From the NCBI GenBank assembly GCA_021804785.1, contig JAJZGY010000003.1:121166-185165 (forward strand): a DNA stretch of 64,000 nucleotides, given 5' to 3'. Shown one piece after another: positions 62,410 through 63,129 of the stretch; position 1 is the stretch's first letter, and each line of letters opens with the position of its first letter. The position numbers and the translations under genes were made by a program. The notes beneath the pieces are model-generated. The model had not been told where the DNA came from. It worked only from the letters and a program-made list of their open reading frames with translations, and did not search any database. The DNA comes from Pseudomonadota bacterium (lineage in GTDB: Bacteria > Pseudomonadota > Alphaproteobacteria > Micropepsales > Micropepsaceae).

Positions 62410-62443
62410 GTTCCCGCCCGTTTGTTCATAAGCGGGAGAGCCT

Positions 62444-62481
62444 GATTCGTCGCGGAGTCCGCGTCAAGAGTCTTGAGAATC
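62444..62481. promoter_or_regulatory. Cluster of four GANTC sites in the ccrM leader
   Basis: GATTC 62444-62448, GAGTC 62455-62459, GAGTC 62468-62472 and GAATC 62477-62481, all within the 78-base gap between rnhB and ccrM; a fifth, GAGTC 62498-62502, lies just inside rnhB. One site per 256 bases is expected by chance at even base use. In Caulobacter the ccrM promoter carries GANTC sites whose methylation lowers its transcription, so autoregulation is inferred here. Confidence 0.75.
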
Positions 62482-62487
62482 AAAAGC

Positions 62488-63129
62488 TTAGTCGGTTGAG
62501 TCCGAGCTGGGTGGTGACCCCAACATCTGGTAGGCGAGCTGTACCGGAGCGAACGATCGACGATGATGCATGGTTGGTCCGAGGCCCTTCAAGGCGCTTA
62601 AATGGCTCGGCGTTGAGTAGCCCATATTGCGGTTCCAACCGTAGAGAGGATGGTCCTGGTGCAGGCGCAGCATGGTACGATCGCGCGTCACTTTGGCAAT
62701 GATCGATGCCGCGGCGATCGATATCGAACGGCCATCCCCTCCGACCAGGGTCTGGCACGGACAGGTAAGGGCTGGGGCATCATTGCCGTCCACCAGCGCA
62801 AAGGCAGGCGTAATCGAAAGTGACCCTACCGCTCGGGCCATCGCCAGATGGGTTGCCTTGCGTATATTCAAAAGATCGATCTCATCGACGCTCGCCTCAC
62901 CAACCCCGATGATCCCCTCGTGTACGATCTGGGCATACAGCTGCTCGCGCCGTTCGGCGCTGAGTTTCTTTGAATCATCGAGGCCTGTGGGGATCCGTGA
63001 TTGGTGGAGGAATATGACCGCGGCGGCGACGACCGGACCAGCGAGCGGGCCGCGTCCGGCTTCATCCACGCCACAGACCGGGCCGGGCCCCTGGGCGAGA
63101 TAATGGTTCTCGGCGGAATAATCGGGCAT
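62488..63129 (-). CDS. rnhB: Ribonuclease HII
   Basis: Cleaves RNA in RNA-DNA hybrids, including single misincorporated ribonucleotides. The 213-residue protein has the DEDD set: CGVDEAGRGPLAGPVVAAAVI in pieces (Asp and Glu near residue 20), DDSKKLSAERRE, and the third Asp in FALVDGN, plus IAAASIIAKVTRDR. ATG 63129 is used; upstream codons to 63144 are possible. It is 78 bases upstream of ccrM in the same direction, so partial co-transcription is possible. Confidence 0.94.
   Translation of the reverse strand: MPDYSAENHYLAQGPGPVCGVDEAGRGPLAGPVVAAAVIFLHQSRIPTGLDDSKKLSAERREQLYAQIVHEGIIGVGEASVDEIDLLNIRKATHLAMARAVGSLSITPAFALVDGNDAPALTCPCQTLVGGDGRSISIAAASIIAKVTRDRTMLRLHQDHPLYGWNRNMGYSTPSHLSALKGLGPTMHHRRSFAPVQLAYQMLGSPPSSDSTD

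Follow-up and report, generated by a model that had tools for sequence, protein, structure and literature searches.

The ccrM locus and its GANTC sites

The window, the whole 64-kb stretch of DNA that was analysed, encodes the solitary cell-cycle enzyme CcrM downstream of rnhB (Table 1). The methyltransferase comprises an N6_N4_Mtase domain (PF01555, E 6e-67) and a C-terminal RAMA domain (PF18755, E 1e-19), is encoded by a single-copy gene, the only ortholog in the 3.29 Mb genome, and shares 92% identity with CcrM of the closest relative of this genome. It matched the NCBIfam equivalog NF050803 (DnaMtaseCcrMCaul) over nearly its full length with 627 bits, below the 830-bit cut-off; since this model is named for Caulobacter and its cut-off may have been set for close relatives, the missed threshold bears on the name and not on orthology. 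The ATG at 62409 lies 58 nt from an upstream TTGAC and is supported by the relatives, whose ATGs are found 58-60 nt from the same element.

Four GANTC sites within 38 bases upstream of ccrM and a fifth just inside rnhB had been claimed in the original prediction, and the coordinates confirm this arrangement: four sites are intergenic (62444-62481), and the fifth occupies the 3' end of rnhB. On the forward strand, S5 reads TGATTCG (62443-62449) and matches the extended motif YGAKTCK preferred by GcrA. Two adjoining perfect 13-bp palindromes are centred on S4 (62451-62463) and S3 (62464-62476). They were considered as a conserved dimer site and rejected, as the relatives lack palindromic flanks, except for a faint trace at the ±1 positions around S4. 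The repeat search gave no repeat at the ccrM upstream locus.

Table 1. Positions of genes, GANTC sites and predicted promoter elements at the ccrM locus of the window
Feature	Position	Strand	Description
ccrM	61273..62409	-	N6 DNA adenine methyltransferase
Predicted +1	62432	-	Placed from the -35 and -10 positions; 5' UTR of about 23 nt
Predicted -10 (CAGGCT)	62439..62444	-	Opens with the C that ends S5
S5	62444..62448	-	GAATC, -16 to -12 from the predicted start
S4	62455..62459	-	GACTC, -27 to -23, within the -35/-10 spacer
Predicted -35 (TTGACG)	62462..62467	-	17 bp from -10; TTGAC in 79/79 family upstream regions
S3	62468..62472	-	GACTC, -40 to -36, abuts the -35 (GACTCTTGAC)
S2	62477..62481	-	GATTC, -49 to -45
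S1	62498..62502	-	GACTC, -70 to -66, in the 3' end of rnhB
rnhB	62488..63144	-	Ribonuclease HII; upstream gene, same strand as ccrM

The predicted core promoter, TTGACN-17-CAnnnT, has the spacing usual for sigma70, and its putative -10 element opens with the C that closes a GANTC. S4 and S5 lie between the predicted -35 and -10, and all five sites fall at about -70 to -12, that is, in and upstream of the predicted promoter. The word "leader", under which the sites had first been described, is thus wrong: the conserved -35 and -10 set all of them 5' of the predicted start and rule out a transcribed leader as their seat. A simple promoter scan missed the predicted ccrM promoter because its -10 differs strongly from TATAAT. 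Within the window's genome, ccrM is the only place with the strict pattern TTGAC-N14-GANTCANNNT, which is therefore not a general promoter type there; a looser pattern matched three further places in the genome, with different spacing.

The site cluster lies far above the GANTC background. In the window, GANTC is depleted, with 114 sites observed against 265 expected (1.78 per kb), and the probability of at least five sites in 100 bp is 1.3e-6 at this rate and 3.6e-5 with doubled intergenic density. Only 32 places in the whole genome hold three GANTC sites separated by gaps no larger than 30 bp. In this genome-wide cluster search, the ccrM upstream region had the shortest four-site span (38 bp, followed by 43 and 44 bp) and the sole five-site chain. 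Under a uniform Poisson model, roughly 0.2 four-site clusters this tight are expected in a genome of such size, so the cluster by itself is not decisive; its location at ccrM and its conservation are. The next tightest four-site clusters were located at G000:C1:8297-8339 (43 bp) and G000:C54:2625-2668 (44 bp). A GANTC triple at 40283-40311 (29 bp) was also observed inside a CoA-transferase-like ORF (39650-40777, forward strand).

Conservation of the core and of the spacer site

The ccrM upstream regions were compared across the family, named public genomes and 106 further genomes across Alphaproteobacteria. The sites proved to be conserved in relatives: the core TTGAC-N14-GANTC was present in 78 of 79 family regions (0.19 in dinucleotide shuffles) and in 42 of the 106 class regions (mean of 0.12 in dinucleotide shuffles). 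Other TTGAC-GANTC distances had few counts each, save for the sliding inner site and the upstream companions in the family. The base following the last GANTC is A in every match, and TTGAC-N14-GANT is followed by C-A-n-n-n-T in 42/42 class and 76/78 family matches. Relative to TTGAC, the GANTC starts of the family array lie at about -44, -35, -15 and -5, then at +8 to +10 and +19. In the family, S1-type sites start 32-36 nt upstream of TTGAC, and in most of its regions S2-type sites start 14-16 nt upstream of it, T preceding S2 in 71 of 72 cases; an S3-type site abutting the -35 accompanies 66/78 family matches and 4/42 class matches.

Among named genomes, the core occurs for instance in Rhizomicrobium electricum, Desertibaculum, an Oceanicola MAG, a Sneathiellales MAG, Kiloniellaceae, and a Pelagibacteraceae genome. 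The ccrM upstream regions of Mesorhizobium and Sinorhizobium are without it, and the core is not universal, since it is missing from 64 of the 106 class genomes with CcrM. The retention of this design over a large part of the Alphaproteobacteria suggests that CcrM marks control the amount of CcrM.

The two sites of the predicted core differ in what is kept. A second GANTC within the N14 stretch of the core (the position of S4) was found in 34/42 class and 76/78 family matches, compared with 3.5% of shuffled 14-mers. Its central base is free (G in 11, C in 11, A in 7, and T in 5 of the 34 class matches), and its offset is 2, 3, 4 or 5 nt, with the other side compensating so that the total stays at 14. 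On the CcrM tree (59 rows of 80), which was built quickly, has many weakly supported branches and yields approximate counts, at least 17 offset changes were counted, at least 9 of them within the family, against the 25 to 33 required by shuffled labels; the distance from TTGAC to S5 is unchanged across this tree. As the spacer site moves yet stays GANTC, with a free central base and fixed overall spacing, selection for a methylatable site in the predicted spacer explains its pattern best. S5 follows another rule: in each of the 42 class matches, its central base is either A or C. Because of this restriction, part of the constraint on S5 is sequence-specific and need not reflect methylation.

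A DnaA-box-like sequence of the TGTKGATAA type begins at about +1 to +4, in the ccrM 5' UTR, in 36 of 76 relatives and is degenerate in the window (near 62417-62436), hinting at a DnaA control of ccrM that may have been lost there.

Predicted methylation sensing and the place of GcrA

The reading that we favour, and consider reasonably probable from the arrangement of the letters, is that the ccrM promoter senses methylation. CcrM recognition sites would then form part of a sigma70 core promoter, with S5 fused to the -10 and S4 in the spacer, and S3 to S1 would abut and precede the -35. Replication would turn all promoter GANTC sites hemimethylated at once, and CcrM would subsequently re-methylate them. 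The methylation state would alter initiation by RNA polymerase, either directly or via GcrA, so that CcrM activity would feed back on the transcription of its own gene.

The direction of the effect is not readable from the sequence because Caulobacter GcrA-type promoters go both ways: ftsZ expression is highest when the DNA is fully methylated (PMC3708114), and activity of ctrA P1 has been described for the hemimethylated state only (PMC10073500). In restriction-modification (R-M) systems whose methyltransferase promoter contains a recognition site, methylation is sensed and lowers expression (PMC6237814), and by analogy with such promoters we lean slightly towards a reduction in ccrM transcription by full methylation. 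Methylation feedback, as originally predicted, thus stands as the most likely reading, given sites that are above background, conserved and selected for methylatability; that it operates as in Caulobacter does not follow, since the predicted GcrA regulation of ccrM was lost in Caulobacterales according to PMC7987155.

GcrA binds methylated GANTC (PMC3667746) and acts as a sigma70 partner at methylated promoters (PMC7403470), and a GcrA (E 4e-50 in a profile search) is encoded in the window's genome. Among the 105 class genomes with a clear GcrA call, the core was present in 31 of 85 with GcrA versus 10 of 20 without it (Fisher p 0.31), and is thus not limited to genomes with GcrA; the cores of GcrA-less genomes show the same A/C choice at S5. 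GcrA as the sole cause of the design was rejected on this evidence: the core is not tied to its presence and does not depend on it. The 20 near-complete genomes encode CcrM without a GcrA detectable by two profiles, the second, home-made one giving only weak matches in them (E of at least 0.19); such genomes are contrary to a strict pairing of CcrM and GcrA. A tentative version of methylation sensing is an old, GcrA-independent sensor of those Alphaproteobacteria that have CcrM, in which RNA polymerase or another reader might detect m6A both in the spacer and at the -10, with GcrA having joined or been lost later, and Rhizobiales and Caulobacterales having replaced the design.

A rather doubtful alternative is activation of ccrM by GcrA-sigma70 bound to S5 (and S4) in methylated form; methylation would then raise ccrM expression in a positive feedback like that of Caulobacter ftsZ, the upstream sites adding GcrA binding. 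The presence of GcrA in the genome and the sequence of S5 fit this model, TGATTCG being among the forms of the extended activation motif YGAKTCK (PMC7987155), and a GANTC between -35 and -10 characterizes the GcrA/CcrM promoter class (PMC3708114, PMC4287350, PMC7403470). In PMC7987155, ccrM is also predicted to belong to the core GcrA targets across alphaproteobacterial orders. The model is weakened by the 10 of 20 GcrA-less genomes, which hold the core with an unchanged choice at S5.

It is improbable that the GANTC letters are incidental and that methylation plays no role. S1, S2 and S5 would then be copies, in one orientation or the other, of a GAMTCA motif bound by a CtrA-like or other factor, or would belong to an unusual -10. 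Conservation of the flanks past GANTC (the invariable A after S5 and the T before S2) and the restricted central base of S5 agree with this view; however, S4, free in its central base and its position, keeps only the CcrM recognition sequence, and the gene concerned is that of the GANTC methyltransferase itself. A chance cluster in permissive intergenic DNA, for which the general GANTC enrichment of alphaproteobacterial intergenic DNA (PMC3973325) speaks, has a negligible probability and is already refuted by the conserved arrangement, with the fixed spacing kept in 78 of 79 relatives and a per-locus chance of 1e-6 to 2e-4, depending on the assumed intergenic rate.

Comparison with known systems

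Ideas on whether and how CcrM regulates its own production have been based mostly on two sites in Caulobacter. The present gene shares with Caulobacter crescentus ccrM its orthology, the 5' GANTC sites and a suggested influence of methylation on shut-off. Two GANTC sites are located in the Caulobacter promoter region (PMC10073500), whereas five are found here, in and upstream of the predicted -35 and -10 and subject to the 14-nt rule.

The sigma70 promoters controlled by GcrA and CcrM (ftsZ, mipZ, and ctrA P1) resemble the predicted ccrM promoter in the GANTC between -35 and -10, the extended motif at S5 and the encoded GcrA, but they have one site in place of several phased ones, and the present design persists without GcrA. 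As in R-M systems of the CfrBI type, the methyltransferase's own site lies within its promoter (here S4 and S5) and can report methylation; in contrast to them, CcrM is solitary and belongs to the cell cycle, the sites are several, and the regulatory effect is a predicted one.

GcrA control of ccrM is, as a prediction, prior art: Adhikari et al. 2021 (PMC7987155), whose sample included Rhizomicrobium palustre, already named ccrM among the likely core targets of GcrA in many alphaproteobacterial orders. In that study, sites were scored independently and promoter position was left aside, and neither the fixed spacing nor the sliding spacer site nor the GcrA-less cases were found in its accessible text. 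The open-licence literature likewise gave no report of a fixed core-promoter placement, a sliding spacer site or GcrA independence, and the architecture of the ccrM promoter appears to be undescribed. A fixed design that is this widely conserved leads to a precise prediction, namely that S4 and S5 should matter with the spacing kept. The GcrA-less genomes offer a natural means to separate a direct methylation effect from an effect of GcrA.

With respect to CtrA, Stephens is said to have placed the Caulobacter ccrM GANTC sites, in 1995, 3' of a CtrA-type (CtrA-activated) promoter; unlike in a leader of that type, all five sites here are 5' of the predicted start and none is 3' of the promoter. 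The window's genome encodes a CtrA that is 82% identical to the Caulobacter query, and the full CtrA box TTAA-N7-TTAA was not found at its ccrM site. By eye, 48 of 76 family members were seen to have a TAA(C) half-box, possibly a CtrA half-site, in the stretch separating S1 from S2; the window carries CTAAG in this region (about 62482-62497) instead.
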